From Siphonodentalium dalli (lineage: Eukaryota > Mollusca > Scaphopoda > Gadilida > Siphonodentaliidae), in assembly GCA_032622095.1 (NCBI GenBank), contig CP136063.1, positions 212,801,982 to 212,865,981 of the forward strand: DNA of 64,000 nt, given 5' to 3'. This document shows positions 22,534 through 59,199 of this stretch, piece after piece; position 1 is the first letter of the stretch, and each line of letters opens with the position of its first letter. The notes beneath the pieces were generated by a model that worked only from the letters and a program-made list of their open reading frames with translations, was not told where the DNA came from and made no database searches. The position numbers and the translations under genes were made by a program.

Positions 22534-22721
22534 AGGAGCCAGCTCGGGTGACGACTGTTACGTCATGGATTTCTGATCTGGTCGCCAACACGACGCACGA
22601 GGATCTGACACCGACGACGATCACACGGAGTAAGAGAATGTTTCTAGATACCCTGGGTGTCGGCATTCTCGGAGCTGAAACAGAGATATCCCACATGATG
22701 ATGCAGTGGGCTAGCCTACAT
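22534..22721 (+). CDS. ACOD1: ACOD1 exon 3 (N-terminal helical domain)
   Basis: Acceptor ATATCCACAG and donor CAT|GTACGT; entry phase 1, exit phase 0. It encodes residues 49-111. The segment ITRSKRMFLDTLGVGILG matches the N-terminal signature of MmgE/PrpD enzymes (human RSKRMILDTLGAGFLG), and SWISDLV aligns with the preceding helix. The flanking open frame extends into palindromic intron DNA upstream, so the exon start was set at the splice acceptor. The donor is slightly off consensus (GTACGT). Confidence 0.92.
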
Positions 22722-23771: not shown

Positions 23772-23974
23772 AATGTACAATGTAGTTCACATACATACAT
23801 GTATATATTATACGTACATGTCAGTGCGAGGTCGCACATAATCGGATATTTTAATGTTATATGCTCTGTTTGAGTCTCAAAATATAAGTTGGATTCGATC
23901 ATACGTGTATACTGTACAACGCAGTTCATACACATACATGTATATATTATACGAACATGTCAGTGCGATGTCGC

Positions 23975-25826: not shown

Positions 25827-26438
25827 CATTATTAAGACCATGACATAATTAAAACTGCACAAATTCAACACATCATTCGCAGTTGGGTGCAATTTATTTG
25901 ATTTTATGAATAAAACTATTCATGGCTGGATGCCATTTTTTTTACGAAAGCTATACGAGTGTGTTGCAAAGCATAATTGATTTTCATATGCAGTGAAATA
26001 TATGTATATTATGAACACCACTTATGTAACTACTCGTCAATGAGTATTTAGTAAATCAAGGGCTAAGGACAGATGTTCCTCAACATGATTTTATTGACAC
26101 CTTGGTATCGCATTCCTGCAATCAAACTTTTGCCATCTAAGATGCGTTTTACTATTCCTGGTCCCCGTTTATTCTTTAGTTACTAAACATTCATTATCGA
26201 GTAGTTCCCTTGGGAAGTGTTCAGATAACAAGCATATTCCCCTCCAATAAACATGACTTCTTCTTCACTTGCATGATTTATCGTCTGCCTATTTTCCGAA
26301 TACCCCTCAACATGAATAATATTGATCATCCCAGCATATGAATTGTATGTGTATTCGTGTTTAACAGATGAGCGAAACCATTTAGTATAGAAAGGGTTAA
26401 ACCTTCCATGACTGGAGCTTCCTGAACTTTTGCGAAAA

Positions 26439-26616
26439 CCCTGTGCCAATGCATTCTCATATATATGCGAGTCTCCCATAAGGAGCTTGCATATATATAA
26501 GAGAATGCGTGGGCCTAACAATATTTACCTTGACCTTGAAAGACAGTGCATTCTCTTATATATGCGAGGCTCCCTATGGAATATATATAATATAATGTAT
26601 AACGTAATGCACTGAC
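26439..26616. repeat. Two hairpins of the AATGCATTCTCTTATATATG family
   Basis: GCCAATGCATTCTCATATAT with its inverted partner near 26500, and a second half-copy near 26548-26616 ending 'aatgcactg'. These are the same hairpins seen inside 13294-13699 and near 51515-51590. Confidence 0.7.
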
Positions 26617-26888: not shown

Positions 26889-27202
26889 GGCGAGATAGAG
26901 AACACAGAAGGAAGGTCCAAGCTTCGGAGTGTCATCTGGGGACCACGGAGTATATCCGCTTCGCCGTCCATCGCAGCTTTCATAAACGGAATCAACGTTC
27001 ACTCAATGGATTTCGATGACACATGGTACCCTGCCACGCACCCTAGCGGGCCGGTTCTACCCACCATCTTAGCACTTGCTGAGACGATGACTGGATCATA
27101 TACTCCAACCTTACGGGATGTTTTAGTGGCATACAATGTCGGGATAGAGATTCAGGGGCTTCTACTAAGGTGTTCAAACAAAGCAAAGGAAATACCGTGG
27201 AG
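26889..27202 (+). CDS. ACOD1: ACOD1 exon 4 (catalytic DFDDTW..ATHPSG exon)
   Basis: Acceptor TCTCCACACAG and donor AG|GTGAGT; entry phase 0, exit phase 2. It encodes residues 112-215 and the first two bases of Arg216. The motif HSMDFDDTWYPATHPSGPVL carries D152, T156 and H162, equivalent to human active-site D93, T97 and H103. AYNVGIEIQGLLL matches human AFNVGIEVQGRLL. The frame runs without a stop. Just downstream (27305) an 8.7 kb tandem array begins in the intron. Confidence 0.97.
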
Positions 27203-27304
27203 GTGAGTTCCGATTCCGAACGTGTGGATGAAATAGAGTGTTGCCAAAACGAGATGGCGATAAGCGCTGAGGGGTGGGCAGTCATGAAGCATTATATATA
27301 TATA

Positions 27305-36042: not shown

Positions 36043-36818
36043 TAACCATTAATACTTGGCAGTCAAAACATAACTCAATTTGATATCAATGATAAACCAG
36101 TAATCACACATGTGAATAACCTATGAGGAAGTGACAGATATAAATTACTGTTACATCCATTTGAATCTTTCTCATCGCATATATGCCTGGACACGCGCGC
36201 TAACATTTTGCATTGTAGATATTGTAGATAATCATCATAATGTTTGTTTAATTAAGGAACGAGTCGCATTGACTCATAGTCCCCATATACTGTATTGTAT
36301 ATCAAATTATCTTTGTATGTACAAACTTGTTATTGAATATAACATATTGTTTACACTAAAACGAGATGACCGCTTATAAATATGAACATTGAGTGAGCTG
36401 CTGAAAAATACTCCATCCAATTTGACGTAAATAGTAGAAAATTACCAAGCCAGCTTGACACATGATCCCGTAACACACATCCGAGTAATAACGATGAGAA
36501 AAGTATCATACATAATAGTAAATTTCAGACATACTGTTATGCTCATTCAGCATGATATTTTCATTGTCCACAAAGTACGATGCAAATTATCTTTCGGTAG
36601 CATGTATATTCGGAGTCACGCCCACGGTTAAGTGGTCCTGATAATTTGTTATGATGCGGGGCTCCTGCTCAATTGCTATGGTGCTGGTAGGGAAAAGCGA
36701 TCAATTTGCAGGACCACTCAACAAGGAACAAGGAGTGGTATTATGTGCATAATATATGTCTAGCCTAAGAGCACAACACAATTTGACGTAGATGACCACT
36801 AAGACTTCCACGTGATAC

Positions 36819-37516
36819 AGTACCAGTCAGAAGAAGTGGTATATATTGAGGCGCGCCTTTATTGCGATATTGGGCGCGCTTAATTTCGAAAAAGGCGCGC
36901 TTGTAATTGCGTTATCGAACGCAAAATATTGAGATATTAAGCTCGCTAAATTCCATACAGACCCGATAGTGTTATAATTATATTAGCTAAATACTGTGCA
37001 TATACTGTACACATAGTGTACATATACCAGTAAAGTGATGTGGAACCCTCCGGTATGGTGATCAAATAGAAATGGAGAATAATATTGTTCAGAGTAGTTC
37101 AGGCAATGTTTTCTATGGAGTGTTACGGTCGATTTGTTTGAGTCTTTCGGTGATGTTAGTAGAATTCTACGTTCCTCCAGTTGGCATAGCAACTGAATAC
37201 TAATTTACCTGTTTCACGCACCGAACAAGTACATAATATGTCTTTAACAACTATAATTATATACAAATCTTAAACTTTGTCTCTATTTGTGCAATAAACA
37301 ATATATATAGAAAAGCAATAATTTGATTTAAATGTCACACTTTTGAGTGCAAGATGTCGCAATATTAAGCGCGAAATACTGCGACATTAAGCGCAAAATA
37401 GTGCAATAATATCGCAAGCGGCGCGCTTATAAGCGTTTCCACCTTGCAATATTATACTGCGATATTGGGCGCGAAAATATCGCGCTTAATATATACCACT
37501 TCCTTTGACTGGTACT
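36819..37516. mobile_element. GCGC-rich MITE ending 51 bp before exon 5A, with nested element
   Basis: The inverted ends AGTACCAGTCAGAAGAAGTG and GTGG-compatible CACTTCCTTTGACTGGTACT define it. The interior alternates GGCGCGCTT and GCGATATTGGGCGCG words. A truncated TTAA-family MITE (37031-37247) is nested inside. The right end lies 51 bp upstream of the exon 5A acceptor. The same element sits at 47975-48800 in copy B. Confidence 0.8.
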
Positions 37517-37567
37517 ATATTATGGTATGAGAAAACTCTATATCAGATTGTAATATTATTATTTCAG

Positions 37568-38480
37568 ATTTCACCCTCCGGCTGTGGTTGGTGTAATGGG
37601 TAGTGCCGCAGCCGCTGCCAACTTACTGGGACTGGGTCCACAGAAATGCCGCCACTCTCTCGCTATCGCCGCATCGTTCGCCGGAGCACCAATGGCCAAT
37701 GCGGGCACACCGACGAAACCACTCCATACTGGAAAGGCTGCACGATTCGGTCTGGAGTCGGCTTTGTTTGCTGATCACGGCATGGAAGGAAACAGTGAGA
37801 TCCTTGACATGGACTCTGGATTTGGGGCTTTCTACGATGATTACGATCCGCAAGAATTTCTAGAAAAGCATTCAAATCATAAAGGTTTTTTCTTGGATAA
37901 GCAGGACATTGCTATAAAGCGTTACCCGGCCCATCTGGGGATGCATTGGGCGATCGACGCCACCATGGCTGTTCGCGAAGAAATCAGAAAGACTGCGAGG
38001 CGCATCGAACCGGAAATGATTCAAGAGATAGAAATATCAACCCCGAACTCGAAATACATCAACCGCCCTCTACCGTCAACAGAACACGAAGCGCGTCATT
38101 CATTCCAATTCAATGTCAGCACGGCTCTGTTGGATGGTTACGTTACGCCAGAGTCATTTTACCACAGCCACAGAAGGCGCAGCGAACTTCTGAACATGTT
38201 AGACAAAGTCAAGATAGTCATTCCAGAAGATAATGTGCCGAACTTTAATGAAATGTACATATCCGTTAAAGTGACAATGTCGAACGGAAATGTTATTACT
38301 AAGCGATGTGACGCACCGTATGGGCACTGGAGAAACCCATTATCAGCTGCCGATCTGGAAAAGAAATTCAAAAGGAACACAAAGTCACTATCACGCGAGA
38401 AACAGGATGGCATCATCAACGCCGTGAAACAACTCGACAAACCTATTCAGACAAGTGAGCTCATCGGCTGGCTCCAGTGA
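37568..38480 (+). CDS. ACOD1: ACOD1 exon 5A (terminal exon, copy A)
   Basis: Acceptor ATTATTTCAG; entry phase 2 (AG|A gives Arg216); stop TGA at 38478-38480. It encodes residues 216-519, about 58% of the protein. FHPPAVVGVMGSAAAAANLL begins the exon. H218, K266 (GTPTKPLHTG), K333 (AIKRYPAH) and H338 match human H159, K207, K272 and H277. EHEARHSFQFNVSTALLDG and APYGHWRNPLS are also family hallmarks. The human C-terminal extension is absent. No consensus AATAAA is near the stop. The first seen is at 39076-39086, inside a downstream MITE. Confidence 0.97.
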
Positions 38481-38980
38481 GCGCCATTGCAATGAACTAT
38501 AAAGGAACAGTCCCCGACAAACGAGCACTCAGCTACACGCAAACACGCCTGCTTGTTTTGTTTGATGCAGATGCTTGATTATTGCATTTACCTGTTCAAA
38601 CTGGGCTCATCAACTGGTTATGGTTGTACAAAAGAACAATTGAATGTTGAACGAATGTTGAATGTTGTGTTAACTTCACGGACCCCATTTTTTTCAGCGT
38701 ATACTGCAGAGCAGAATAGCCGAAAAATAATGTATTCGCCGTTCGTGATAATGAGAGCGATGTAATATCACATCGTGCATGGCCAATGAAAAGAGGTCAT
38801 ACTGTGACTATATTGCTACACAATTACAGAGCGTGTGGTGTCATTTCTAGCCAAAGCTTTTGTCGGCCGTATCAGCTCCATTTTTTTATTTCAAATATAT
38901 GAGTGTTGTTATGGATTGATGTCTAAAGAATAGAAATGCATGCTATGGTGCAAATATATACATGAAACCCAGCTATTTAT
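38481..38980 (+). other. Probable ACOD1 3' UTR/downstream flank (copy A)
   Basis: Unique sequence shared with copy B (49765 onward, interrupted there by a LINE). Near 38690 copy A has an extra ~20 bp compared with B. No coding sequence is supported. Overlapping AATAAA signals at 39076-39086 may serve as a distal poly(A) signal. Confidence 0.4.
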
Positions 38981-38984
38981 TTAA

Positions 38985-39310
38985 GGACATATTATGGACC
39001 TGTTCGGGTTCGTTGATCTTATGCGCTATGCCAATCTGAGGAATGAAGCATTTTACTAACATCGCCGAAATTGTCAATAAAATAAAACCATACCACTCCA
39101 TGGAAAACGTCGTCTGAACTACGCTCAATTGTAAATATTTACATCTGGATTCGGGACGCAACTATCGGCGATAAACAAACACAAATGATATCGTCATCGA
39201 GAGTCATTGCGTTTAACTAATATATCAGAATGACGGTGTGTGCGTTGTCAATTTGGATTAATATTTGTAAAAGTAACTACTTTGAGCAAGATCATTCTCC
39301 AATATAAGTC
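38985..39310 (-). mobile_element. TTAA-type MITE family member (copy A)
   Basis: After TTAA at 38981-38984 it starts GGACATATTATGGACC and contains TTCGGGACGCAACTATCGGC. It is inverted relative to 37031-37247, so exon 5A sits between opposed copies of the same family. Its distal end has decayed. The region 39310-40130 beyond it holds nothing recognised. Confidence 0.65.
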
Positions 39311-40129
39311 ATTGCAACTTATTACAGAAATAGCTTTATTGCAATTTATAGTCAACGCATATAATGTGTCATTTGATCATGATCGTAGTGTATGTGAACG
39401 TTTTATATATGCTATTTTATATATGGTATATATTATATAGTACGTGTACGGTGTACAGGTTTGATTTACACAATTGATCAATTAGAAAGAATTTCCGAAC
39501 ATTCGAGCTGCGTTAGCGATGGATGGTTTCTGAATGCAGGTTTCCATCGTTTTCACAAAGGGTAAGCATGTTGCACATTTGGTGCATCTGTCACGTATAA
39601 CGATCTTAGCATTGACATATTATTTCCCCCATCTCAGCTGACACGGAAGGGTTCAGATATAACACCACACGCAATTTCTGACAAAGAACATGTACAGATG
39701 AAGGCCGACTCATAGTCAATCAGCACTAGTCATTTATCCATTTGAAAGATACATGTTTTGACAGCAACTGTTGAACGACATCATGCCTGTTTATTTGTCT
39801 GTTAATTGATATGTGTTGACATCGGTGAAAATTGATTTATTCAAACGTGTTTAATCTATCTACATATATATAAAAGAGTAGTACTGTATATATTTGATAA
39901 TGTAAATATTTTCACATCCTGTTGAATTATCATTAAAATTCTCAAACAAATTGAACACATTTTATATATACCAATCCCATTGTATTATCTATACACATGT
40001 GGTACCTATATACATGTAAAAAGCCCCACGCCGATTTGAATCATGAAACTATGCTCGGTTTTGTTAAGTTCGGAGGATCAATTACGTAAATAATTTTAAG
40101 AATTTAGATGTATTTGCGTTCAAATTATT

Positions 40130-41700
40130 CTCATTGTTTGAATGTCCAACCAATTTAGTGGGGAATATGTTGTTTTTAGACCAACAGCAGCATAATTTTC
40201 TACTTTTTTCAAACTTTTGGTCTCAAATTTCTATCAGTTGGAAATTGTCCAACCTTATTGCTTAGAAATTTCCAATAGTAGGAAAATTTGAGGTACCATG
40301 TTGGAAATTTTCCATCCTTAGTGGTGTGTGTCAAGTTGGAGGTTAAAATTTCCAAAAGTTGATAAGTATTTTCCTGGCTGAAAATTCCGACCCAAGTGCG
40401 TGTGTGTTTGTGGGGGAGTTTCGTCTGATTCAAAGTGGGGGTTCATTTGGAAATGTCAAGGTCCACAACCCCAACAAAAACTATCTAGCCACGTCCATGT
40501 ATGAAATGTAGGAAACAGTTGAAAATATCTATGACTTTGACAAAATTTGTCAGCGGTATATAACTTACGTGTATTTAGTATACTATTTACCAGCCTATCA
40601 CATCTGTCATTCCAGGGACTTCCAGTTCACCTTGGAAATTCCAACTGCACCCCCTTGAATCAAACCAAACACATGTTTTGTTGAATTTCATTTGCACCCC
40701 CCCCCCACCGTTTTGGACTCCAACTGCTCCTGTACAGGTCTAGTAGCTTATTCCGAATGGCTATTGTACTATAACCAGATGGAGGAACAGAACCATCGTT
40801 CTATATGCCCGGTATGAGAAATTTTAGAGATCTGAACCTGAGAAAATTGCGTAAATTCTAACATCTTGTGGTCTATTCCAGACAAATTCACATGACCACG
40901 GGGAGGGACCATGGTTTGCACTGGTGTGAGAAAATTTTGAAATCTGAACACAAAAAATCGCAAAATCCTGGCATCTGGACTGGCCTCAAGTTTTGCTAGT
41001 GTTTGAAATTTCAAACCTGTTATCCTGTTGTCCACAATTTTGACCAAATGTTGTAAAATAATGTTTTCTTAAACTAATTGGCATTTTTTTAGGCCACGGG
41101 GAGGGAACATGACAGACTGGGCAGACCATGGTTCGGCCCGGTGTGACAATATTTTGTAATCGGAACAAGAAAATAGCAAAATCGTAGCATATAGACTGAC
41201 CTCAAGCTTTCCCAGTGTTGGAAATTTCAAACCTGACACCTCCACTTAGGTTGGAAAATTTCCAACTGATGACCATTTCAGTCCACAATTTTGACCAAAT
41301 GTAGAAAAATATTGTTTTCTTAAATTAACTAGCAGTTTTTGACTGGCCACGGGGAGGGACCTGGACACAATCTTTCCAACTGTTGGAAATTTCCAATCTG
41401 ACACTCCCCTAAGGTTGGAAAATTTCCAACTGATGGCCATTTCAGTCTAAAATGTTTACCAAAAGTAGGAAAATGTGCAAATATTAGTATAAAACAACAA
41501 ATTCTCTTATAATAGATTGTTGGAAAATCAAACAACAAGACCAATTTCAGCTTGTTGTTAGTGTGAGATTTCCAACTAATGTTGCGTCAAGTATGAAATT
41601 TCCAACTGTTGAAAATTTTGACCAAAGTTGGGGGGGGGGGGGGGGGGGGGGTCAGATACCCACAAAAACCCCATGTCGCCACGTCTCTGTCTCCTTCCCC
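40130..41700 (+). repeat. TTGGAAATTTCCAAC-rich repeat block (copy A)
   Basis: Dense in TTGGAAA, TTTCCAAC, TTTTGACCAAA and 'ggccacggggaggga' phrases, in about three degenerate internal repeats, and ends in a ~23-base G run near 41630. It corresponds to 52790-54310 in copy B. It is non-coding and related to 6300-6905. Confidence 0.7.
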
Positions 41701-42054
41701 ACATGTAATTACGTCAGTGCAACGCGAAGATTCAAATGAGCTATTGAATGTGATTAATAATCTTCAGCGTTCTCTCCATACTTAGATCATGTCATGAATA
41801 TATACTCTATAGGAATCAGGGAGCTAAATGTGTGCCAGGCTCGGGGAGCGAGTGCACCGTGGAATGCTAGAGGTGAAGATAACTGTTCAAAGAATGTCCT
41901 TCACCTGATACATGTGACACGTTATTAACTGATGACATTTTGTTTATTTGATTTGTACATCATATATAACAAGAAAACTAAGATGCATGCATCAGGTCGG
42001 CCGTGAACTATCTACCATAGAATTGTTGTAGCTATCGATTATTCATTTTGAAAC

Positions 42055-42930
42055 ACCTGTCTGTATGTATGTATGTATGTGTGTATGCGTGAATGCATGT
42101 GTGTATGTGTTATAGACTCTAACACTGCTCGAATTTGGTATTTAACGTGTCAACTTGACCTCGCTCATAGGCATGTTTCTGGACCTTGACCGATCCGACT
42201 AAAAATTTGTGTGTAGGACTACTTCGATCCCGGGAGCAATATGGACGGGTCCAATTTCACGTGGGACCATGTTCTCGAACGTGCTGATATAGGCATGTTT
42301 CTGGACCAATTGAACAATAGTTTGGCCAGACGCTGTATATACTGGGTACTGTCCAGATGGAGGCGATCACAAAAAAAATCCCTAACTAGCCCGAACGAAG
42401 TCGAGTACATCAGCTAGTTTAATATATATTTTGGACATTTGTCTGTCTGTTTGTCTGTTAGCTATGGCCGGGAAAACTGCCGGACAGATTTGACGAAATT
42501 TGATACCTAGGGGAAATTATTTCCAGGGAGTATTTTGGACGGGTCAAATCTTGATCCCGACCTGACTTTGACATTCAAAAAGATCAATTCAAGGTCAAAT
42601 CTGGTAAAACGGAAGTATTTCAACGAAATTTGATACCTACTGTTACTTTTGTCCCAGGAGTGTTTCGGGTGGGTCAAATCATGACCCTGACCTGATCTTG
42701 ACATTCAAAATTGTCAATTCAAGGTCAAATCGGGTATAAAGCCGGGCGGATTTCGACGGGTACTTTTGTCGTGACTTTTGTCCGGGGAGTGTTTTGGACG
42801 GGTCAAATCGTGACCCCGACATGACCTTCACCTTTAAAATAGTCAATTCAAGGTTAAATCGCGCATTTCTCCGAAAATCAGAGGGGAACATCCCGGACGA
42901 AGTGGGGTCCACGAGCTACTATTATATATT
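42055..42930 (-). mobile_element. Minus-strand relatives of the CTTCGTCCGGG-head family
   Basis: Reading on the minus strand, heads occur near 42929 (TAGCTCGTGGACCCCACTTC, GTCCGGG) and near 42419 (CTAGCTGATGTACTCGACTT, GTTCGGGC). Between them are ~100-bp sub-repeats with GACGGGTCAAATC and TCAATTCAAGGTCAAATC, plus TATG/TGTC microsatellite tails. They resemble the heads of the intron 4 array but have different bodies. Confidence 0.65.
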
Positions 42931-44361
42931 TCTAGATTTAGTTACAAACTAAATACCTGTATATTGTACAAGGAAATGTTTGACAAATATATCTGTATCA
43001 ATATTACCATACGGGTCATTAAAATAGATACGACGAAACAAATTTTGAAGGGTGCATGTATCAGGTAAATTTTTATATTTCAAATGATGACAGGAATGCA
43101 GAAAGTTGAAGTACCTACGTAATACTGGCTATCCTCATGAAGAGATATACATGTATATAAAAACCAGATGAGGGATATGTCTGTACAGTTGCTAAACAAT
43201 TCAGTCATGCAAAAGAGGATCAAAGAGTAAGATACCAAATTGCTGCCTGTGGTAATGTTTTGTAACGAAATTCGGGAAAATTAGATTACTCTCACCCTGG
43301 TTATCCAGAAGATAATTGTGGAATCTGATGACGATCGGACAAGGGTGTCGTCTGTAGGATCACCAAATTATTTAGCCATAAAAATAGTAAAATTGAAGAT
43401 CACCGCTGGCAGTGATGTCTTCACAAGGACAGTTTGAGAACAAAATATGGCTCCCATCTAGCGGTGACCCAAAATATCCACATAAGAAAAAGTTCTCCAA
43501 TAAAAGCTGGTTGCAGGGTGCGCCAATTGATTCAAATTCGAAATTTAGCAGGGTGTACTGCTTGTGGCCATGTTTTCCCCGCAAATTTGATAGACTGATG
43601 GACAAAACCACTGAATCCGTTGAATCGATATACATGTATACATGGATTAATTTATATGCATTGTTATACACAGTACTGGTATATAAAGGTACTGAAAATA
43701 ACTATATTACTAGTATACACAAAATAAACCATATATCATGGCTATGGGTTCTAATATCCGAACATGACAGCTGAGAACTTGGTGTGAATTAAAGAGTGGT
43801 GGTTTCTCAAGCATATCTAACCCTCCACGTTAGAAACATGCCATTAAATGTCATAAGTATAATCTAGCTTGAGGACAGAAGTGATCCATAAAACCCCCCT
43901 TAATTCAACCAGGTCCTCGCGCGATGTATGATCGATCACATGATGATCTAGGGGGATTAGAATTGATGTATAAAAACAGCACTGCATGTAAATATAAAAT
44001 AAAATATTGCTACATCTTATTACAGATTATTGCCATATATAATCAGTGATTATACAGACAGTCTGACAAAATAAAGTTTCAGTGACACTCTATCCGAAGA
44101 GGGGAATAATTTCATCTGTTACAGTCAATGGAGCAATTATGAATCTGGAAAGGTGAAATTTCTAAGTAATACTAGATATCGACATGACGCGATAAAATAT
44201 AACGTAAATGCAATATGGCCGCTGGCGACCATTTTTTCCTATGAAATTAAAAAAATATTTGATAGCTCTCATCTGATAGATCAATATCAAGATAAATATG
44301 AAGTTTGGTGATGATCGGATGAGTGAAGTGGACTGTGGTCTGTGCTAAACGGTTTAGTAAT

Positions 44362-44665
44362 GCTTAAAAAGATTCTTACCTTAATATTTTTATGTTCACT
44401 TTATAAACTTCACTGAGTCATCTTTGTCATGTATTGAGTTTGATATCTTTTGTTAACAGTTTATAAATCATGTATGTCTCATGTTTGTTATTTTAATTTA
44501 TGTGTTTATTATCATTAAATAAAGTTGCATTCCTTAAAAAGATTCTTACCTCAATGTTTTTATGTTCACTTTATGAACTCCACTGAGTCATCTTTGTCAT
44601 GTATTGAATTTGATATCTTTTGTTAACAGTTTATAAATTATGTATGTCTCGTGTTCTTTATTATA
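44362..44665 (+). repeat. 170-bp tandem duplication
   Basis: CTTAAAAAGATTCTTACCT recurs 170 bp apart, followed in both copies by 'catctttgtcatgtattga' and 'gttaacagtttataaat'. The first copy contains AATAAA near 44517. The second is cut short at about 44665. Confidence 0.85.
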
Positions 44666-45928
44666 TTATATACACTTTATAGTGTTTTCAGAACGAAAAA
44701 AAATTGAATAAAATCAACAAATTTGTAAATTTAAAAACAATTCAAACGTTGTTGTATTCCATGTCCCAGCCCGGACATATACACCAAATTTCAATAATAT
44801 TCATTGAGAAACAACGGACCAAACGCTATATAACACCCGTATACATCTTTTATTCCGAATCGGACTCGGGTACATGTTATAGTAGGTACCGAATTGACAC
44901 ACGTCGACTGGGCGAGTTGGCCATGGGGCGATTAGGCCGATTCCGGCACATTCTATAATTTACCGTATGTATCCGTTTACGCGTAGTTTACTTTAGAAAG
45001 TTCCGCAATTAATACCGTAAATAGAGCGACCTTATTTGACAGAGAATGCCTCTGTTATTGATTATCAAGTTGCTGTACATTAAAAACGACAAATTCACAT
45101 GCTCGTTCAAGCGCAGTAGTCTATTTTCCCCATGTTAAAGGACATCCACAAATACTAAATAACGCTAACCTACTGCCGAATGTTTGACACGACAACTGTT
45201 AACATATTTGGGCTGAATTCATCTGACGCGGTATTATTCCTCAAAATAAACAACAAAACCATCGTTACTTGGAAATGTAGTTTGGGCTAACATTTACATA
45301 AATCCTCCAGATCAATTATCCGACACACACGTCAGATCAAAAAGTCACATGAAGTAACCGGCCAAATTGGCCGAAATAATTTTAACAGGTGAATTAATGG
45401 GGCAGTGGATGTTTGTTGCGGGGACATTTATAAACTGCTGTACATGTAGTTCTGGGTTTTTCCAGGTAAACTTTGGCTGCAGGGTAGAACTGTCGGACAC
45501 TTTGGGAACTATTTAAAAAAGTAAACACATGACCTATAATTTTTCTTGCATTTTCGTGATCAACTGGTGTCAATCTAGCTGGGTAAACAACACTGGAGTG
45601 GCCTGCAGGATTCAATTGGTGAATTTAACTGAAACGTTAACACTGTCGTCTATGGGAAACCATTTAGTTCAGTGATTCCTATATAGCTACGCCTGCATTG
45701 TGCTTTGCGTCGCATACAATCATGGAATTTCTCCCGGGTAGTTAATTCAATATTTGTTGCGATATCGGCTCACAAAGGTCTCAATAAAACATGCAATCTC
45801 GAGCTGGGACCACTTCCTATTATTTAGGAACAAGTATTAACAAAGCAATATATGCCCTGTCTTGTTTGTTCAATGCTATAAAGTTCACTGTCAGAACTGG
45901 TCAGAACATAAAAAAGTTCCCAGGTTTT

Positions 45929-47728
45929 AAACTGGTGGAATACTAGTATGATATACGGGCATAAGCTATAGATTAGGGATTCACGACATGAGAACTGGTG
46001 GAATATGATATACGGACATAAGCTATAGATTAGGGATTCACGACATGAGAACAGGTGGAATATGATATACAGACATAAGCTATAGATTAGGGATTCACGA
46101 CATGAGAACAGGTGGAATATGATATACGGACATAAGCTATAGATTAGGGATTCACGACATGAGAACAGGTGGAATATGATATACGGACATAATCTATAGA
46201 TTAGGGATTCACGACATGAGAACAGGTGGAATATGATATACGGACATAAGCTATAGATAGGGATTCACGACATGAGAACTGGTGGAATATGATATACGGA
46301 CATAAGCTATAGATTAGGGATTCACGACATGAGAACTGGTGGAATATGATATACGGACATAAGCTATAGATTAGGGATTCACGACATGAGAACTGGTGGA
46401 ATATGATATACGGACATAAGCTATAGATTAGGGATTCACGACATGAGAACTGGTGGAATATGATATACGGACATAAGCTATAGATTAGGGATTCACGACA
46501 TGAGAACTGGTGGAATATGATATACGGACATAAGCTATAGATTAGGGATTCACGACATGAGAACTGGTGGAATATGATATACGGACATAAGCTATAGATT
46601 AGGGATTCACGACATGAGAACTGATTGAATATGATATACGGACATAAGCTATAGATTAGGGATTCACGACATGAGAACTGGTTGAATATGATATACGGAC
46701 ATAAGCTATAGATTAGGGATTCACGGCATGAGAACTGGTTGAATATGATATACGGACATAAGCTATAGATTAGGGATTCACGACATGAGAACTGATTGAA
46801 TATGATATACGGACATAAGCTATAGATTAGGGATTCACGACATGAGAACTGGTTGAATATGATATACGGGCATAAGCTATAGATTAGGGATTCACGACAT
46901 GAGAACTGGTGGAATATGATATACGGACATAAGCTATAGAGTAGGCATTCACGACATGAGAACTGGTGGAATATGATATACGGGCATAAGCTATAGATTA
47001 GGGATTCACGACATGAGAACTGGTGGAATATTATATACGGACATAAGATATAGAGTAGGCATTCACGACATGAGAACAGGTGGAATATGATATACGGACA
47101 TAAGCTATAGATTAGGGATTCACGACATGAGAACTGGTGGAATATGATATACGGACATAAGCTATAGATTAGGGATTCACGACATGAGAACTGGTGGAAT
47201 ATGATATACGGACATAAGCTATAGAGTAGGGATTCACGACATGAGAACTGGTGGAATATGATATAAGGACATAAGCTATAGATTAGGGATTCACGACATG
47301 AGAACTGGTGGAATATGATATAAGGACATAAGCTATAGATTAGGGATTCACGACATGAGAACTGGTTGAATATGATATACGGACATAAGCTATAGATTAG
47401 GGATTCACGACATGAGAACTGGTTGAATATGATATACGGACATAAGCTATAGATTAGGGATTCACGACATGAGAACTGGTGGAATATGATATACGGACAT
47501 AAGCTATAGATTAGGGATTCACGACACGAGAACTGGTGGAATATGATATACGGACATAAGCTATAGATTAGGGATTCACGACATGATAACTGGTTGAATA
47601 TGATATACGGACATAAGCTATAGATTAGGGATTCACGACATGAGAACTGGTGGAATATGATATACGGACATAAGCTATAGATTAGGGATTCAAGACATGA
47701 AAACTGGTTGAATATGATATACGGACAT
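45929..47728 (+). repeat. 57-bp minisatellite, about 31 copies (end of copy A)
   Basis: The unit contains GAATATGATATACGGACATA, AGCTATAGATTAGGGATTCA and CGACATGAGAACTGG. Few substitutions separate the copies (GGTGG/GGTTG/GATTG, CTGG/CAGG, GATTAGGG/GAGTAGGC). It runs straight into the first base of copy B. The homologous array at the end of B has only 4 copies. Confidence 0.95.
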
Positions 47729-47974
47729 AAGTACGATGCAAATTATCTTTCGGTAGCATGTATATTCGGAGTCGCGCCCACGGTTAAGTGGTCCTGATAA
47801 TTTGTTATGATGCGGGGCTCCTGCTCAATTGCTATGGTGCTGGTAGGGAAAAGCGATCAATTTGCAGGACCACTCAACAAGGAACAAGCAGTGGTATTAT
47901 GTGCATAATATATGTTTAGCCTAAGAACACAACACAATTTGACGTGGCTGACCACTAAGACTTCCACGTGATAC

Positions 47975-48800
47975 AGTACCAGTCAGAAGAAGTGGTATAT
48001 TGAGGCGCGCCTTTATTGCGATATTGGGCGCGCTTAATTTCGAAAAAGGCGCGCTTATTATTGCGATATCGAACGCAAAATATTACAGACCCGATATTGT
48101 TATAATTATATTAGCTAAATACTGTGCATATATTGTACATATAGTGTACATATACCGTAAAGTGATGTGAAACACTCCGGTATGATGATAAAATAGAAAT
48201 GGAGAATAATATTGTTCAGAGTAGTTATTTTTACAAATATTATATCTAAATTGACAACCCACACCGTCATTCTTATATATTAATTAAATGCAGTGACTGG
48301 CGATAGCGAAATCGTTTTCGTTAGTTTATCGCCGATAGAAGCGTCCCGATTCGAGTAGTAAATATTTACAATTTAGCGTTGTTCAGGCAATGTTTTCTAT
48401 GGAGTGTTACGGTCGATTTGTTTGAGTCTTTCGGTGATGTTAATATAATTCTACATTCCTCCAGTTGGCATAGCAACTGAATACTAATTTACCAGTTTCA
48501 CGCACCGAACAAGTACATAATATGTCTTTAACAACTATAATTATATACAAATCTTAAACATTGTCTCTATTTGTGCAATAAACAATATATATAGAAAAGC
48601 AATAATTTGATTTAAATGTCACACTTTTGAGTGCAAGATGTCGCAATATTAAGCGAGAAATACTGCGACATTAAGCGCAAAATAGTGCAATAATATCGCA
48701 AGCGGCGCGCTTATAAGCGTTTCCACCTTGCAATATTATACTGCGATATTGGGCGCGAAAATATCGCGCTTAATATATACCACTTCCTTTGACTGGTACT
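47975..48800. mobile_element. GCGC-rich MITE before exon 5B, with nested TTAA-family element
   Basis: Same inverted ends as 36819-37516 and the same 51-bp spacing to the exon acceptor. The nested element (48159-48531) is fuller than in A: it keeps a ~160-bp central part that A has lost across a short GTT microhomology. Confidence 0.8.
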
Positions 48801-48851
48801 ATATTATGGTATGAGAAAACTCTATATCAGATTGTAATATTATTATTTCAG

Positions 48852-49764
48852 ATTTCACCCTCCGGCTGTGGTTGGTGTAATGGGTAGTGCCGCAGCCGCT
48901 GCCAACTTACTGGGACTGGGTCCACATAAATGCCGCCACTCTCTCGCTATCGCCGCATCGTTCGCCGGAGCACCAATGGCCAATGCGGGCACACCGACGA
49001 AACCACTCCATACTGGAAAGGCTGCACGATTCGGTCTGGAGTCGGCTTTGTTTGCTGATCACGGCATGGAAGGAAACAGTGATATCCTTGACATGGACTC
49101 TGGATTTGGGGCTTTCTACGATGATTACGATCCGCAAGAATTTCTAGAAAAGCATTCAAATCATAAAGGTTTTTTCTTGGATAAGCAGGACATTGCTATA
49201 AAGCGTTACCCGGCCCATCTGGGGATGCATTGGGCGATCGACGCCACCATGGCTGTTCGCGAAGAAATCAGAAAGACTGCGAGGCGCATCGAACCGGAAA
49301 TTATTCAAGAGATAGAAATATCAACCCCGAACTCGAAATACATCAACCGCCCTCTACCGTCAACAGAACACGAAGCGCGTCATTCATTCCAATTCAATGT
49401 CAGCACGGCTCTGTTGGATGGTTACGTTACGCCAGAGTCATTTTACCACAGCCACAGAAGGCGCAGCGATCTTCTGAACATGTTAGACAAAGTCAAGATA
49501 GTCATTCCAGAAGATAATGTGCCGAACTTCAATGAAATGTACATATCCGTTAAAGTGACAATGTCGAACGGAAATGTTATTACTAAGCGATGTGACGCCC
49601 CGTATGGGCACTGGAGAAACCCATTATCAGCTGCCGATCTGGAAAAGAAATTCAAAAGGAACACAAAGTCACTATCACGCGAGAAACAGGATGGCATCAT
49701 CAACGCCGTGAAACAACTCGACAAACCTATTCAGACAAGTGAGCTCATCGGCTGGCTTCAGTGA
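48852..49764 (+). CDS. ACOD1: ACOD1 exon 5B (duplicate terminal exon)
   Basis: A complete second copy of the 913-bp terminal exon, with the same acceptor (TTATTTCAG), phase, length and TGA stop. I count seven base differences from 5A by eye. Four change the protein: Q to H (in PQKCRHS), E to D (SEILD), M to I (EPEMIQ) and E to D (RSELL). Every active-site residue is kept. No second copy of exons 1-4 lies between, so it could be used only by splicing from exon 4 past 5A, or it is silent. It could instead be the other haplotype misassembled in tandem. Confidence 0.85.
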
Positions 49765-49804
49765 GCGCCATTGCAATGAACTATAAGCGAACAGTCCCCG
49801 ACAA

Positions 49805-50660
49805 TAAATACTACTTTACCAGCTATTCTAGGACAGCTCAAATTTACCACACCAGGCTGAGATTAAGATGTAGCAATCTTAACAGCGATCTAAAAGATAA
49901 CCACCTCAAAGACTTGCCTTATTGCATGTGTGGTTGCATTGAAACTGCTAGACATTTTTTTCTGGAATGCGCTCAATATACCTCTCACAGAGAAGAACTT
50001 CTTAATACCCTATCTGACGTAACAATAACTAGTGAATTATTACTATGGGGATCTGATGAATTATCCTATGAAACTAATAAAAAATCTTCATGGCAGCTCA
50101 GAAATTTATAATAACCAGTAATCGCTTTCAACGATTCTTCTCTTAAGCTGTTCCAAAATTGCAATATTGAACTTGAATGGTACATCATAAACCGAGATGC
50201 TATTGATCTCTCGAACGTGGGTCGTCGGGTCGATGGACCACTGCAGATGTTCACATGGTTATTTTTCCAATCACAAATTATGTATAAATACTTTTTATTT
50301 CCTTGAAATGTGTTATTATATATCTTTTTGGTTTATTTGAAATTAATTATATGCATGTTCAGATATATAATTACACCTCACACTCTGTACTCTCTGACCT
50401 TCTCTCTAAAATTCTGACATTATCTTCTGTCCCTTAGTCTCGCCTCCATCTCATATTTCTTCTTTCTATGGATCTTTGTTATGCCTCTATTATTTACCCC
50501 TACTTGACTTGCAGTCAAGTAGGGCTGTGCCATTGTCAAGGGAGAGGGCTTCAAATAAGTCTATGGCTTGTTGCCTAATCCCATTTTTCTTCTAAATTTG
50601 TATCTATTGTAATTATTTATCTGAATGTCCATAGAGGGAAAAATAAATACTGTTTAAACT
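49805..50660 (+). mobile_element. 5'-truncated non-LTR retrotransposon inserted in copy B
   Basis: A 15-bp direct repeat AACAGTCCCCGACAA (49790-49804 and 50661-50675) flanks the 856-bp insert. Copy A has the uninterrupted site near 38500-38520. The first ~300 bp encode an ORF2 C-terminus (HTRLRLRCSNLNSDL, then C.C and HFFLEC, the Cys/His knuckle of this LINE type). The rest is 3' UTR, ending in an AATAAATACTGTTTAAACT-type tail without long poly(A). The open frame that seems to continue ACOD1 past its stop is this insert. Confidence 0.92.
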
Positions 50661-51122
50661 AACAGTCCCCGACAAACGAACACTCAGCTACACGCGAACA
50701 CGCCTGCTTGTTTTGTTTAATACCGATGCTTAATTATTGCATTTACCAATTGAAACTGGGCTTATCAACTGGTTGTGTTTATACAAAAGAACAATTGAAT
50801 GTTGAACGAATGTTGAATGTTGAATGTTGTGTTAACTTCACGGACCCAGAGCAGAATAGCCGAAAAATAATGTATTCGCCGTTCGTGATAATGAGAGCGA
50901 TGTAATATCACATCGTGCATGGCCAATGAAAAGAGGTCATACTGTGACTATATCGTTACATAATTACAGAGCGTGTGGTGTCATTTCTAGCCAAAGCTTT
51001 TGTCGGCCGGATCAGCTCCATTTTTTTTATTTCAAATATATGAGTGTTGTTATGGATTGACGTCTAAAGAATAGAAATGCATGGTGCAAATATATATATA
51101 TGAAACCCAGTTATTTATTTAA

Positions 51123-51626
51123 CCCTTTCAGTGCCAGTGGCCGATCTCATCGGCCCTAATTTACGGTCTGTAAAATCGGCCCTAAAAAAAATTCAAAATA
51201 AAATGTTTTTGTTTTTAGATTTGTTTTAGATTTTTTAGATTATTTTTTAGATTTTTTTTTGTATGCTTTTTTGGGTATGCTTAAGCATGCTATAGCGAAT
51301 TAAAAAACAAACCCGAAAAAACCTTAGGGGCATGTTATAACTCAAAACTATCACCAAGTATTCATAGTAATAATTTTGATGCCCATGAAAAACGTAATAT
51401 TCCCTGGCACTAAACCTACAAAATACTGAAAGAGTTAAAGAATATAAGAAAAAATTATTAAAATTGTAAAAAATTATAAAAAATAATAACAAATGATGAA
51501 AATTTTTTTATTCTAATGCATTCTCTTATATATGCGAGGCGACCTATGGCCGACTCGCACATATATGAGAATGAATTGGCACAGGGTATATGGGTTGATA
51601 CAAAAATCGGACTTGGCACTGAAGGG
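51123..51626. mobile_element. piggyBac-type MITE carrying a nested hairpin (copy B only)
   Basis: TTAA at 51119-51122 and 51627-51630 flank ends CCCTTTCAGTGCCAGTGG and (reverse complement) CCCTTCAGTGCCAAGTCCG. The interior is A/T-rich and includes the AATGCATTCTCTTATATATG hairpin near 51515-51590. Copy A keeps the empty site with one TTAA at 38981-38984. No transposase. Confidence 0.9.
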
Positions 51627-51630
51627 TTAA

Positions 51631-51970
51631 AGACATATTATGGACCTGTTCCGGTTCGTTGATCTAATAAGTTGGTAATCATGCGTTATGCCAATCTGAG
51701 GAATGAAGCATTTTACTAACATCGCCGAAATTTTCAATAAAATCAAACCATACCACTCCATGGAAAACTTCGTCTGAACTACGCTCAATTGTAAATATTT
51801 ACATCTGGATTCGGGACGCAACTATCGGCGATAAACAAACACAAATGATATCGTCATCGAGAGTCATTGCATTTAATTAATATATCAGAATGACGGTGTG
51901 TGTGTTGTCAATTTGGATTAATATTTGTAAAAGTAACTACTTTGAGCAAGATCATTCTCCAATATAAGTC
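51631..51970 (-). mobile_element. TTAA-type MITE family member (copy B)
   Basis: Equivalent of 38985-39310. It starts AGACATATTATGGACC directly at the TTAA now shared with the piggyBac-type insertion. The following 51970-52790 holds nothing recognised. Confidence 0.65.
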
Positions 51971-52789
51971 ATTGCAACTTATTACAGAAATAGCTTTATT
52001 GCAATTTATAGTCAACGCATATAATGTGTCATTTGATCATGATCGTAGTGTATTTGAACGTTTTATATATGCTATTTTATATATGGTATATATTATATAG
52101 TACGTGTACGGTGTACAGGTTTGATTTACACAATTGATCAATTAGAAAGAATTTCCGAACATTCGAGCTGCGTTAGAGATGGATGGTTTCTGAATGCAGG
52201 TTTCCATCGTTTTCACAAAGGGTAAGCATGTTGCACATTTGGTGCATCTGTCACGTATAACGAACTTAGCATTGACATAGTATTTCCCCCATCTCAGCTG
52301 ACACGGAAGGGTTCAGATATAACACCACACGCAATTTCTGACAAAGAACATGTACAGATGAAGGCCGACTCATAGTCAATCAGCACTAGTCATTTATCCA
52401 TTTGAAAGATACATGTTTTGATAGCAACTGTTGAACGACATCATGCCTGTTTATTTGTCTGTTAATTGATATGTGTTGAAATCGGTGAAAATTGATTTAT
52501 TCAAACGTGTTTAATCTATCTACATATATATAAAAGAGTATACTGTATATATTTGATAATGTAAATATTTTCACATCCTGTTGAATTATCATTAAAATTC
52601 TCAAACAAATTGAACACATTTTACATATACCAATCCCATTTTATTATCTATACACATGTGGTACCTATATACATGTAAAAAGCCCCACACCGATTTGAAT
52701 CATGAAACTATGCTCGGTTTTGTTAAGTTCGGAGGATCAATTACGTAAATAATTTTAAGAATTTAGATGTATTTGCGTTCAAATTATTC

Positions 52790-54310
52790 TCATTGTTTGA
52801 ATGTCCAACCAATATAGTGGGGAATATGTTGTTTTTAGACCAACAGCAGCATAATTTTCTACTTTTTTCAAACTTTTGGTCTCAAATTTCTATCAGTTGG
52901 AAATTGTCCAACCTTATTGCTTAGAAATTTCCAATAGTAGGAAAGTTTGAGGTCCCATGTTGGAAATTTTCCATCCTTAGTGGTGTGTGTCAAGTTGGAG
53001 GTTAAAATTTCCAAAAGTTGATAAGTATTTTCCTGGCTGAAAATTCCGACCCAAGTGCGTGTGTGTTTGTGGGGGAGTTTCGTCTGATTCAAAGTGGGGG
53101 TTCATTTGGAAATGTCAAGGTCCACAACCCCAACAAAAACTATCTAGCCACGTCCATGTATGAAATGTAGGAAACAGTTGAAAATATCTATGACTTTGAC
53201 AAAATTTGTCAGCGGTATATAACTTACGTGTATTTAGTATACTATTTACCAGCCTATCACATCTGTCCTTCCAGGGACTTCCAGTTCACCTTGGAAATTC
53301 CAACTGCACCCCCTTGAATCAAACCAAACACATGTTTTGTTGAATTTCATTTGCACCCCCCCCCCGTTTTGGACTCCAACTGCTCCTGTACAGGTCTAGT
53401 AGCTTATTCCGAATGGCTATTGTACTATAACCAGATGGAGGAACAGAACCATCGTTCTATATACCCGGTATGAGAAATTTTAGAGATCTGAACCTGAGAA
53501 AATTGCGTAAATTCTAACATCTTGTGGTCTATTCCAGACAAATTCACACGGCCACGGGGAGGGACCATGGTTTGCACTGGTGTGAGAAAATTTTGAAATC
53601 TGAACACAAAAAATCGCAAAATCCTGGCATCTGGACTGGCCTCAAGTTTTGCTAGTGTTTGAAATTTCAAACCTGTTACCCTGTTGTCCACAATTTTGAC
53701 CAAATGTTGTAAAATAATGTTTTCTTAAACTAATTGGCAATTTTTTAGGCCACGGGGAGGGAACAGGACAGACTGGGCAGACCATGGTTCGGCCCGGTGT
53801 GACAAAATTTTGTAATCGGAACAAGAAAATAGCAAAATCGTAGCATATAGACTGGCCTCAAGCTTTCCCAGTGTTGGAAATTTCAAACCTGACACCTCCA
53901 CTTAGGTTGGAAAATTTCCAACTGATGACCATTTCAGTCCACAATTTTGACCAAATGTAGAAAAATATTGTTTTCTTAAATTAACTAGAAGTTTTTGACT
54001 GGCCACGGGGAGGGACCTGGACACAATCTTTCCAACTGTTGGAAATGTTCAATCTGACACTCCCCTAAGGTTGGAAAATTTCCAACTGATGGCCATTTCA
54101 GTCTAAAATGTTTACCAAAAGTAGGAAAATGTGCAAATATTAGTATAAAACAACAAATTCTCTTATAATAGATTGTTGGAAAATCAAACAACAAGACCAA
54201 TTTCAGCCTGTTGTTGGTGTGAGATTTCCAACTAATGTTGCGTCAAGTATGAAATTTCCAACTGTTGAAAATTTTGACCAAAGTTGGGGGTGGGGGGTGG
54301 GGGGTGGTCA
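52790..54310 (+). repeat. TTGGAAATTTCCAAC-rich repeat block (copy B)
   Basis: Homologue of 40130-41700 with scattered substitutions. The terminal G run of A is here broken into GGGGGTGGGGGGTGGGG. Confidence 0.7.
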
Positions 54311-55172
54311 GATACCCACAAAAACCCCATGTCGCCACGTCTCTGTCTCCTTCCCCACATGTAATTACGTCAGTGCAACGCGAAGATTCAAATGAGCTAT
54401 TGAATGTGATTAATAATCTTCAGCGTTCTCTCCATACTTAGATCATGTCATGAATATATACTCTATAGGAATCAGGGAGCTAAATGTGTTCCAGCCTGGG
54501 GGAGCGAGTGCACCGTGGAATGCTAGAGGTGAAGATAACTGTTCAAAGAATGTCCTTCACCTGATACATGTGACACGTTATTAACTGATGACATTTTGTT
54601 TATTTGATTTGTACATCATATATAAATAATTTTAACAGGTGAATTAATGGGGCAGTGGATGTTTGTTGCTGGGACATTTATAAACTGCTGTAGTTCTGGG
54701 TTTTTCCAGGTAAACTTTGGCTGCGGGGTAGAACTGTCGGACACTTTGGGAACTATTTAAAAAAGTAAACACATGACCTATAATTTTTCTTGCATTTTCG
54801 TGATAAACTGGTGTCAATCTAGCTGGGTAAACAACACTGGAGTGGCCTGCAGGATTCAATTGGTGAATTTAACTGAAACGTTAACACTGTCGTCTATGGG
54901 AAACCATTTAGTTCAGTGATTCCTATATAGCTACGCCTGCATTGTGATTTGCGTCGCATACAATCATGGAATTTCTCCCGGGTAGTTAATTCAATATTTG
55001 TTGCGATATCGGCTCACAAAGGTCTCAATAAAACTTGCAATCTCGAGCTGGGACCACTTCCTATTATTTAGGAACAAGTATTAACAAAGCAATATATTCC
55101 CTGTCTTGTTTGTTCAATGCTATAAAGTTCACTGTCAGAACTGGTCAGAACATAAAAAAGTTCCCAGGTTTT

Positions 55173-55400
55173 AAAACGGTTGAATATGATATACGGGCAT
55201 AAGCTATAGATTAGGGATTCACGACATGAGAACTGGTGGAATATGATATACGGACATAAGCTACAGATTAGGGATTCACGACATGAGAACAGGTGGAATA
55301 TGATATACGGACATAAGCTATAGATTAGGGATTCACGACATGAGAACTGGTGGAATATGATATACGGACATAAGCTATAGATTAGGGATTCACGACATGA
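55173..55400 (+). repeat. 57-bp minisatellite, 4 copies (end of copy B)
   Basis: Same unit as 45929-47728 (TGATATACGGACATAAGCTA, TAGGGATTCACGACATGAG), contracted to four copies. The duplication ends here. Confidence 0.95.
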
Positions 55401-55970: not shown

Positions 55971-56219
55971 AACCAGAAACTCTACTTACATGTAGAGGTA
56001 AGCATATATTTATCGCCTAACCAGAAAAATTCTACTTACATGTAGAGGTAAGCATGTATTTATCGCCCAACCAGAAACTCTACTTTCATATAGAGGTAAG
56101 CATATATTTATCGCCCAACCAGAAACTCTACTTACATGTAGAGATAAGCATATATTTATCGCCCAACCAGACACTTTACTTACATGTAGAGATAAGCATA
56201 TATTTATCGCCCAACCAGA
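55971..56219 (+). repeat. 48-bp tandem repeat, five copies
   Basis: The unit AACCAGAAACTCTACTTACA-TGTAGAGGTAAGC-...-TTATCGCCC contains the inner inverted repeat CTCTAC..TGTAGAG. It directly abuts the 5' end of the LINE fragment at 56227. A minus-strand frame of repeating 16-residue units follows from the period. Confidence 0.9.
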
Positions 56220-56226
56220 TATTCGT

Positions 56227-57207
56227 ATGACACATTTACACGTTGGCAGACTTATATGCAACTTGTTGGAAAAGATCTGCGAAAAAGCAATATCAGCCAT
56301 GTATCAACTCATTAAAGTTGGCAGAAAAAATGACATATCGATTAAAACCATGTTCGAATTGTTTGATAGAAAAATAGTTCCCATTCTTACATATGGTTGT
56401 GAGATATGGGGCATATACAATAATATTAGCATTGAGCGGGTTCATCTTAAATTTTGTAAGCTAATTTTATGCATGAAATCATCAACTCCAAATTATATGG
56501 TCTACGGTGAGACCGATCGCAAACCAATTGATATCATTATTAAAACGAAAATCCTTAAATTTTGGAGTTCCATGATCATAGGAAGAAAGTCCAAGTTATG
56601 TAATACTATATACTGGCTATCTTACGATTACTTGACATACAGTGAAATAAAAATACCATGGATCCTCGGTGTCAGGAAAATTTTTGATCATTGTGGCATA
56701 AGCTACTCATGGAATAATCAGAAAACATGTGATTTAAATATGCTCCAAACTGAAATTAAAAGGTTGCTGAATGACCAATTTATACAGACCTGGCATGGTG
56801 AACTGCAATTATCTAGAAAAAACTCATTATATGCCATTATAAAAACCAAACCAAAATTTGAAAGTTACATGAGTGGCCAAAATTACAAATCTGTAACTGA
56901 TCTAGTCCGATTTAGAACTCGAAATCATGCATTACCGGTGGAGGCTGGAATATGGACTAATATCCCCAGAAATGACCGTATTTGCTCATTATGCCGTAGT
57001 GACACTATTGCTGATGAACTCCACTATTTGATAGACTGTCCATATTTTAAATCAGAACGAGATAACTTATTCCCTATTTACAGTAGAAGCGATTACAGCC
57101 TTCATAAACTGAAATTACTATTGAGCACATCCCGACCGTCCACTATGAGGAAAACCTGTAAGTTTATCAAAATTATAACGTCAACCGTCTGTTCTCCAGG
57201 GCAGTAA
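56227..57207 (+). pseudogene. Non-LTR retrotransposon ORF2, C-terminal third
   Basis: A 326-codon frame. KAISAMYQLIK and FDRKIVPILTYGCEIWG (about residues 20-60) are the region just after the reverse-transcriptase catalytic core. VRFRTRNHALPVEAG and CSLCRSDTIADELHYLIDC (CxxC..HxxxxC) are near the C-terminus. The catalytic FADD-type motif and the endonuclease are absent, so the copy is 5'-truncated. The frame is intact over this part, which suggests a fairly recent insertion. It is followed by a hairpin and an A-run tail. Confidence 0.88.
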
Positions 57208-57858: not shown

Positions 57859-58338
57859 TTACACAGGAGAGCAATTAGCTCTTTCATTGATGTGGCAAAT
57901 ACATTTACACAAGTTTCGGATTATATTTGGTTTACTATTTGAAAGAAGAATGGTAAGTTTTCTCTGATTATGGAAGTTCCAATAAGATTTCTTGATGTAC
58001 CTTTTTCTGTTAAGGGCTAGTTCTGGACATTCAAGTAATACGTGGTATTCATCGCCAATAGCATTCATTTCACAAAACGTACATTTGCGCTCAGACTGTG
58101 GAGTTTTATTCCATCGCCCGGTCTCTATTGGCAAATAATGGTTCGCCGTTCTAAATCGGATTAGAGCTATTATATCTTTGTTAGAGGCATGTGAAATAAA
58201 TTCTTCCATTCGAAACGTTGACTTCAGAATCCTATATGTTTTTCCTTTCCCTGAGTTACTCATAGCGGAATGCCAGTTTTGGACAAATTGATCTCTAGAA
58301 TTTCGTCTATAATTATTCAACAAGAAAGACTTGTTCAA
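57859..58338 (-). pseudogene. Non-LTR retrotransposon ORF2 C-terminus, minus strand
   Basis: A 159-codon frame with DQFVQNWHSAM, IRFRTANHYLPIETGRW and CTFCEMNAIGDEYHVLLEC (CxxC..HxxxxC), ending NERANCSPV. It has the same architecture as the fragments at 56227-57207 and 16248-16530 but is clearly diverged, so it belongs to another subfamily. It is 5'-truncated. The neighbouring 58370-58540 resembles the 'cgctctttat..atatcaggaat' dispersed family. Confidence 0.85.
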
Positions 58339-59199
58339 GGTGCGGACCCTTTCTTGTTCGATTGGGCTTTATTTCGTTTCATATGACATATCACAACATT
58401 TAGAAATAACAAAATCGGGAACAGACTTTCCATCGACATTAGACAATAAAGAGCGTTTCCTTTTAGACTATTCCTGACATGGGTGAAAATAAGAGCGCTT
58501 GTCTCATTTTGTGAGAAAACAGCTGGAAATTGCCGCCCCACTCATGCAAACTTGAAGGCAGTGTTCAGGCCACTCGCTACGCTGGTATGACCACTGCCAT
58601 CATGTATTCATAAGGTATTAAAAATCAAACATTTTTATTTAAGACATTTGTCGGTTACAACTCAATGTGATTTGATCAAGCCAATTTCTAAATAAACATG
58701 GACAGTTCAGTTTCCCATAATAATGCAGAGTGAATTGTAACCGACATAAGTCTTAAATATAAACATGAAATGTTTCCTTACATTGTGTATACCCTATGGT
58801 AGTTTTCAAAGCAGCGTAGCGAGGGACTGAACTGTGCCTTGTAATTTGACGTATATGTATTTATTATATTCTTCCCCTTTAAATAGTGATAAATTGCCGC
58901 AACGTAAATATCGAATTTAGTGTCTAGACCAACAGTAACCATATCATTTCGTTATTCAAAAAATATTTATTCACCGTGGCTTACTGTCGGTAAAAATGAG
59001 ATCTTCACTGTCGCTTACTTCCGGTAAAATCACCGAATAATTTCAACTGAAATTTTGTGAACGGTTTGTGAGATATTTGGAATTAATTATGGAATATTAA
59101 TACATTAAAATAGTTATCGACAAGGTTAAAGCATATAATAAATAGAACACCTATTGTGTTTTGAGCGAATCCCATTTCTGGTACCATGCCCTTTTATAA

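Follow-up and report, generated by a model that had tools for sequence, protein, structure and literature searches.

Two tandem copies of the ACOD1 terminal exon in a genome assembly of the scaphopod Siphonodentalium dalli

The ACOD1 gene and its two terminal exons

A stretch of 64,000 nucleotides from the scaphopod mollusc Siphonodentalium dalli (assembly GCA_032622095.1, contig CP136063.1, positions 212,801,982 to 212,865,981; the window in what follows) carries on its + strand the 3' part of a gene for ACOD1/IRG1, the cis-aconitate decarboxylase of the MmgE/PrpD family. The gene ends in a tandem pair of homologous terminal exons, each with its own acceptor, open frame and stop, while each of the two upstream coding exons identified occurs once in the window. 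Alignment bears out the two 913-bp exons of the initial annotation, with acceptor and stop in common: exon 5A lies at 37568..38480 (+) and exon 5B at 48852..49764 (+), each with 303 codons and a stop, and their acceptors are 11.3 kb apart. The labels follow the exon numbering of that annotation, which had four single upstream exons. A set of four was not reproduced, and the two upstream coding exons confirmed here each match once.

The upstream exons were located by tblastn with an N-terminal half of mammalian ACOD1 as the query. An N-terminal coding exon lies at 22534..22721 (+; E=1.5e-8) and another, with residues aligned to D93, T97 and H103 and a donor GT at 27203, at 26889..27202 (+; E=6.8e-30); both have splice sites and a single DNA match in the window, and joined to either copy of the terminal exon they give an open frame of 470 residues. 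A scan for a first coding exon (ATG, at least 12 codons, fixed phase, GTRAG donor) returned three candidates, of which the one with a consensus donor, at 9241-9295, is a weak candidate that is not accepted as proven. ARAGORN and Rfam, the latter at the gathering threshold, gave 0 matches in the window.

Several lines of evidence bear on the identity of the product. The Pfam MmgE_PrpD C and N domains score 134.9 and 74.1 bits in exon 5A and 133.4 and 73.8 bits in exon 5B, against cut-offs of 32.1. The best solved relatives of exon 5A are six distinct chains named cis-aconitate decarboxylase, presumably mammalian (E=6.7e-88 to 5.6e-86), followed further off by IDS-epimerase (5.8e-23) and Bacillus IRG1 (1e-12). 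Residues D93, T97, K207 and K272 are taken here to belong to the active site. In the literature, H103, H159, H277 and Y318 are named as active-site residues of ACOD1 (PMC7347537). With Y318 left out of the mapping, the aligned residues are identical at seven of seven of these positions, H159, K207, K272 and H277 sitting in the duplicated exon and D93, T97 and H103 in the upstream exon. Domains, closest solved relatives and aligned active-site residues agree with ACOD1/IRG1, for which the predicted activity is production of the immune metabolite itaconate from cis-aconitate.

The two terminal exons are 99.2% identical and keep the same phase and stop. The initial annotation had counted about seven base differences and four amino-acid changes, none of them catalytic; the counts are exactly seven and four, and none of the replacements (Q/H, E/D, M/I and E/D, all conservative) falls on the seven active-site positions checked. 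At all four replaced positions both copies differ from the mammalian residue. The bases that differ (37643, 37799, 38018, 38186, 38246, 38315 and 38474 in copy A) are pyrimidines in B at 7/7 and purines in A at 5/7. Because the last 195 bp of the preceding intron are identical before 5A and 5B, the acceptor, its pyrimidine tract and the likely branch region are alike, and nothing there separates one exon from the other. Exon 5B contains no stop or frameshift; this intact frame and the codon-position pattern described below speak against the view of it as a decayed pseudoexon. Its membership of a complete second gene is unsupported within the window, where the upstream coding exons match only once each.

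The duplicated unit and its junction

The exon pair is part of a larger tandem repeat, whose limits were set by self-BLAST and by the junction sequences. Copy A of the unit (36573..47731, +) comprises the end of the intron, exon 5A, its 3' region and satellite, and copy B (47729..55400, +) adjoins it, in agreement with the earlier proposal of a tandem duplication around a junction at 47728, the units being larger than the exon alone. In self-comparison the copies are collinear, broken by insertions. Exon copies arising by chance or as members of a repeat family are ruled out by this collinearity, which extends across the entire unit in five blocks of 88-99% BLAST identity (gaps counted), and the duplication is confirmed as far beyond chance.

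At the junction itself (47726..47732, +), sequence from inside a 57-bp satellite abuts the start of the unit. The satellite array of copy A (45947..47731, +; about 31 units) stops there, 16-19 bases into a unit, and passes straight into unit-start sequence, with an AAG common to both (47729-47731) as microhomology. Array B (55178..55400, +), with about 4 units, breaks off at the downstream flank after 45 bases of a unit, in another phase than array A. The 64,000 bases of the window contain 0 N, so that no N gap separates the copies, and ahead of 36573 copy A is free of satellite. At a random blunt join, at least 3 bp would be shared with a probability of about 0.05. A clean, gapless junction with microhomology favors a real tandem duplication. 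As a separate observation, the satellite is open on the - strand as a frame of 513 codons (46201-47742).

Between 27294 and 36044, the intron before exon 5A contains further long tandem expansions, whose repeats are about 97% identical and offset by roughly 0.88 and 1.8 kb; the locus therefore seems prone to duplicate. These expansions have an internal 122-bp repeat that, by its consensus, is also present at 4936-5368.

Divergence between the copies

Differences between the two exons are confined to one codon position. At first, second and third positions they number 0/304, 0/304 and 7/304, and the aligned noncoding sites of the unit differ at 103/4980, or 2.07% (second alignment, non-overlapping blocks). 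Positions 1 and 2 together thus show 0/608 differences against the 12.6 expected at the noncoding rate (P=3.5e-6), and by Fisher's test they depart both from noncoding sites (P=1.5e-5) and from third positions (P=4e-4). The exon as a whole is less diverged than the rest (7/913 versus 100/4980 in the first alignment, P=0.007). Relative to noncoding sites, nonsynonymous sites carry fewer differences (P=0.003) and synonymous sites do not deviate (P=0.80). With all seven differences at third positions, the two exons diverged under coding constraint, 5A and 5B alike. Third positions have meanwhile diverged at the noncoding rate (7/304, or 2.3%, versus 2.07%), and the low divergence of the exon is therefore not a matter of local homogenization.

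Away from codon positions the divergence is patchy. In 250-base windows it ranges from 0 to 5.7%, with 0.4-1.2% around the exon; just after the exon (38481-38984 versus 49765-51122) it reaches 28/479, or 5.8%, and beyond that stretch it is 42/2981, or 1.4%. The noncoding differences are clustered, with a variance-to-mean ratio of 3.36 in 200-column bins that none of 2000 shuffles equaled. Could the exons be old tandem paralogs kept alike by gene conversion, with conversion and not selection behind their low divergence? The patchiness would suit such a history, and most of the 5.8%-diverged stretch lies between two elements inserted in B, where heterology would block conversion. Yet the exon was not homogenized as a whole, with its third positions at the noncoding rate and its differences patterned by codon position, and the longest identical tract, of 313 columns, is not unusual: shuffling all sites produces one as long in 24% of cases, and shuffling noncoding sites in 12%. 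Old, converted exons are accordingly a very improbable account of the locus.

A second alternative takes the duplication as real but recent, produced by unequal exchange between diverged alleles or lately fixed, with 5B a silent 3' fragment that shows constraint only through divergence older than the duplication. Divergence of allelic size agrees with this, as do the nearer position of 5A with an identical acceptor and the structure of the interval between 5A and 5B, which holds no copy of the upstream coding exons (a promoter was not searched for there). Against it stand the absence of any stop or frameshift in 5B and a test in which B alone is neutral for its half of the divergence, which gives P=0.0019 at the noncoding rate, 0.0016 if the rate is taken within the same alignment block, and 0.0009 at the third-position rate; this test presumes that the divergence arose after the duplication, and only on that presumption is an unconstrained 5B disfavored (P about 0.002). 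A silent 5B is judged unlikely.

The remaining alternative is a heterotype false duplication, in which the assembly placed two haplotypes of an ordinary ACOD1 3' end in tandem; A and B would then be alleles, with a single terminal exon per chromosome. A group of observations weighs in this direction or against a real duplication with two usable exons. Copy A ends in satellite, where A and B meet, and an intronic repeat block ends about 530 bp before the unit starts; assemblies are apt to break in repeats. The constraint seen in the exons fits two exons in use, and it also fits two alleles, as do third-position-only differences in the exon beside 2.07% in noncoding sequence. A plain contrast of nonsynonymous with synonymous divergence is not significant (4 and 3 differences over 708 and 201 sites, P=0.19). 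Patchy divergence could come from recombining alleles or from partial gene conversion. Finally, noncoding divergence of 2.07% together with large insertions looks to be within the allelic range of some bivalves: a mussel genome is reported to have a heterozygosity of 1.73% and extensive hemizygosity (PMC7653742), which the large insertion differences between A and B would match.

False exon gains of this type are a documented class of assembly error (PMC9516828), and this locus shares with them a near-identical, adjacent partial gene copy with allele-like divergence. The same source lists a gap between the copies as a mark of false duplication (PMC9516828), whereas the ACOD1 copies meet without one and no N lies between them. 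A misjoin through an overlap would need the same repeat on both sides, but satellite is absent before 36573 in copy A, and the join shows the AAG microhomology. The choice between a real duplication and assembled haplotypes turns on this junction and on the absence of a gap; the haplotype explanation is judged somewhat unlikely, though the strongest of the rivals.

3' regions and a model of two last exons

The 3' regions of the two copies have been reshaped separately. Copy B carries, from 40 bp after its stop, an 856-bp piece (49805..50660, +) between 15-bp target-site duplications (49790-49804 and 50661-50675). The initial annotation had the 3' end of a long interspersed nuclear element (LINE) gained as new sequence by one of the two 3' untranslated regions. 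The piece in B is LINE-like, it lies in sense orientation as judged from its + strand reading frame, and it holds AATAAA matches; the LINE call was made by eye, from the resemblance of the opening frame to the zinc-knuckle region at the C-terminus of LINE proteins, and there was no family-model match, the piece not having been put to Pfam. A 5' truncation of the piece is probable. Further downstream in B lies a 504-bp insertion (51123..51626) resembling a miniature inverted-repeat transposable element (MITE), with TTAA on both sides and terminal inverted repeats of the CCCTTTCAGTGCC type, marks by which it is presumably piggyBac-like. More partial matches to this element are found at 21211-21356, 13314-13560 and 26438-26579.

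Other differences concern copy A. A 3.4-kb stretch (41970..45373, +) is absent from B, with no clear target-site duplication and a 2-bp overlap of the aligned blocks. Conversely, B contains 157 bp (48215..48371) of an older dispersed repeat with no counterpart in A; this looks like a deletion in A because the same repeat occurs elsewhere in the window, at 20716-20871, 19366-19522, 39129-39285, 51789-51945 and partly at 21749-21870; an insertion in B is disfavored on the same grounds.

The candidate poly(A) signals, which are consensus matches only (AATAAA or ATTAAA), are arranged differently in the two copies. The first AATAAA matches after the stop of A are at 39076..39086 (+), 596 and 601 bp past it. 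The counterpart of the first in B is at 51736, and B has earlier matches at 49803 (across the edge of the LINE-like piece), 50076 and 50642, with further AATAAA/ATTAAA matches in the MITE-like element.

Outside the unit, the window holds a higher-order satellite at 23968-25820 (46-61-bp units, periods near 135 and 257 bp), one frame of which gives seemingly spurious Pfam matches. Open frames at 56002-57207 (+) and 57859-58368 (-) resemble by eye C-terminal parts of LINE proteins, of the reverse transcriptase type; Pfam found nothing above cut-off in either.

The explanation favored here, tentatively and at a little under even confidence, is a real and fairly young tandem duplication of the ACOD1 3' end that left two usable terminal exons. 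The history of the unit would then begin with a break in the terminal intron, at 36573, joined through the 3-bp AAG microhomology to a break in the 57-bp satellite array beyond the gene. Such a joining would have copied the final 1 kb of intron sequence together with the terminal exon, its 3' region and some of the satellite. Two transposable elements would later have entered B, and a deletion would have removed about 157 bp of an older repeat from A, which also came to differ by the 3.4-kb stretch.

Under the same model the upstream exon could splice to either acceptor. With no difference between the acceptors, and 5A the earlier of the two to be transcribed, 5A would be expected as the default last exon and 5B as a minor alternative, the use of which would need polymerase to read through the poly(A) signals of A and the 5A acceptor to go unused. 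The products would be near-identical enzymes from messages differing in their 3' untranslated region (UTR), with that of B running into the LINE-like 3' end. Any difference between the isoforms would probably concern the 3' UTR more than the catalytic activity, since the four replacements are conservative and fall where both copies depart from the mammalian residue. In its fullest form, the model has one promoter of an immune-induced itaconate enzyme feeding two last exons that each encode about two thirds of the protein, both under purifying selection and with distinct 3' UTRs, B using the LINE-like 3' end and its poly(A) signals; taken all together, these claims are rather doubtful.

How does this compare with known systems? 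In sequence, domains and the active-site residues checked, the gene is like ACOD1/IRG1 of other animals; mammalian ACOD1 has one terminal exon, as opposed to the two found here. None of the literature matches listed reports a duplication of the ACOD1 terminal exon, which is weak evidence of absence. The nearest precedent found is the alternative oxidase (AOX) of the oysters Crassostrea virginica and C. gigas, in which terminal exon 10 is tandemly duplicated and which the authors present as the first example from a mollusc (PMC5589949). The two cases share a stress-tied metabolic enzyme, a single gene, a stop of its own for each copy and functional residues kept in both. The oyster copies are old, however (63.5-65.9% similar, in two oyster species), and encode 41 amino acids with 14-15 residue differences (PMC5589949), whereas the ACOD1 exon encodes 303 at 99.2% identity and transcription of the pair is predicted. 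Both oyster mRNAs were seen, shifting under air exposure, and one message contains the two exon copies consecutively (PMC5589949); the proposal for the ACOD1 pair is a choice between last exons.

Duplicated terminal exons used in alternation are an established kind of gene structure. Among human tandem duplicated exon substitution events, 77/236 are reported as C-terminal swaps (PMC9741552), and human, fly and worm examples such as the tropomyosins likewise swap the C-terminal part through homologous alternative 3' exons (PMC9741552). Those events are annotated as spliced and are mostly ancient (PMC9741552), whereas in ACOD1 the swapped region is nearly identical and splicing to both exons is predicted. 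The ACOD1 pair is likely another such case, with a putative use of 5B. What distinguishes it from the oyster pair is how large the exon is, how young it appears and how nearly identical its copies are, along with the LINE-like 3' sequence.

Human duplicated-exon events are described as mostly ancient (PMC9741552), and the first-stage survival of such pairs is therefore hard to see. ACOD1 would be a suitable gene in which to study early duplicated exons because one mussel study reports cis-aconitate decarboxylase as 222- to 656-fold up after Vibrio infection in three animals (mean 416; PMC6401078). If A and B are instead two haplotypes, the locus would be a clean example of false exon gain that passes reading-frame and selection tests. 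If the duplication is real, a pair at 2% divergence, with both exons constrained and 3' regions already different, would let the earliest stage be tested. Should both exons also be used, the enzyme would be served by two messages under different regulation, the second of them gained before divergence since the duplication had passed 2%.

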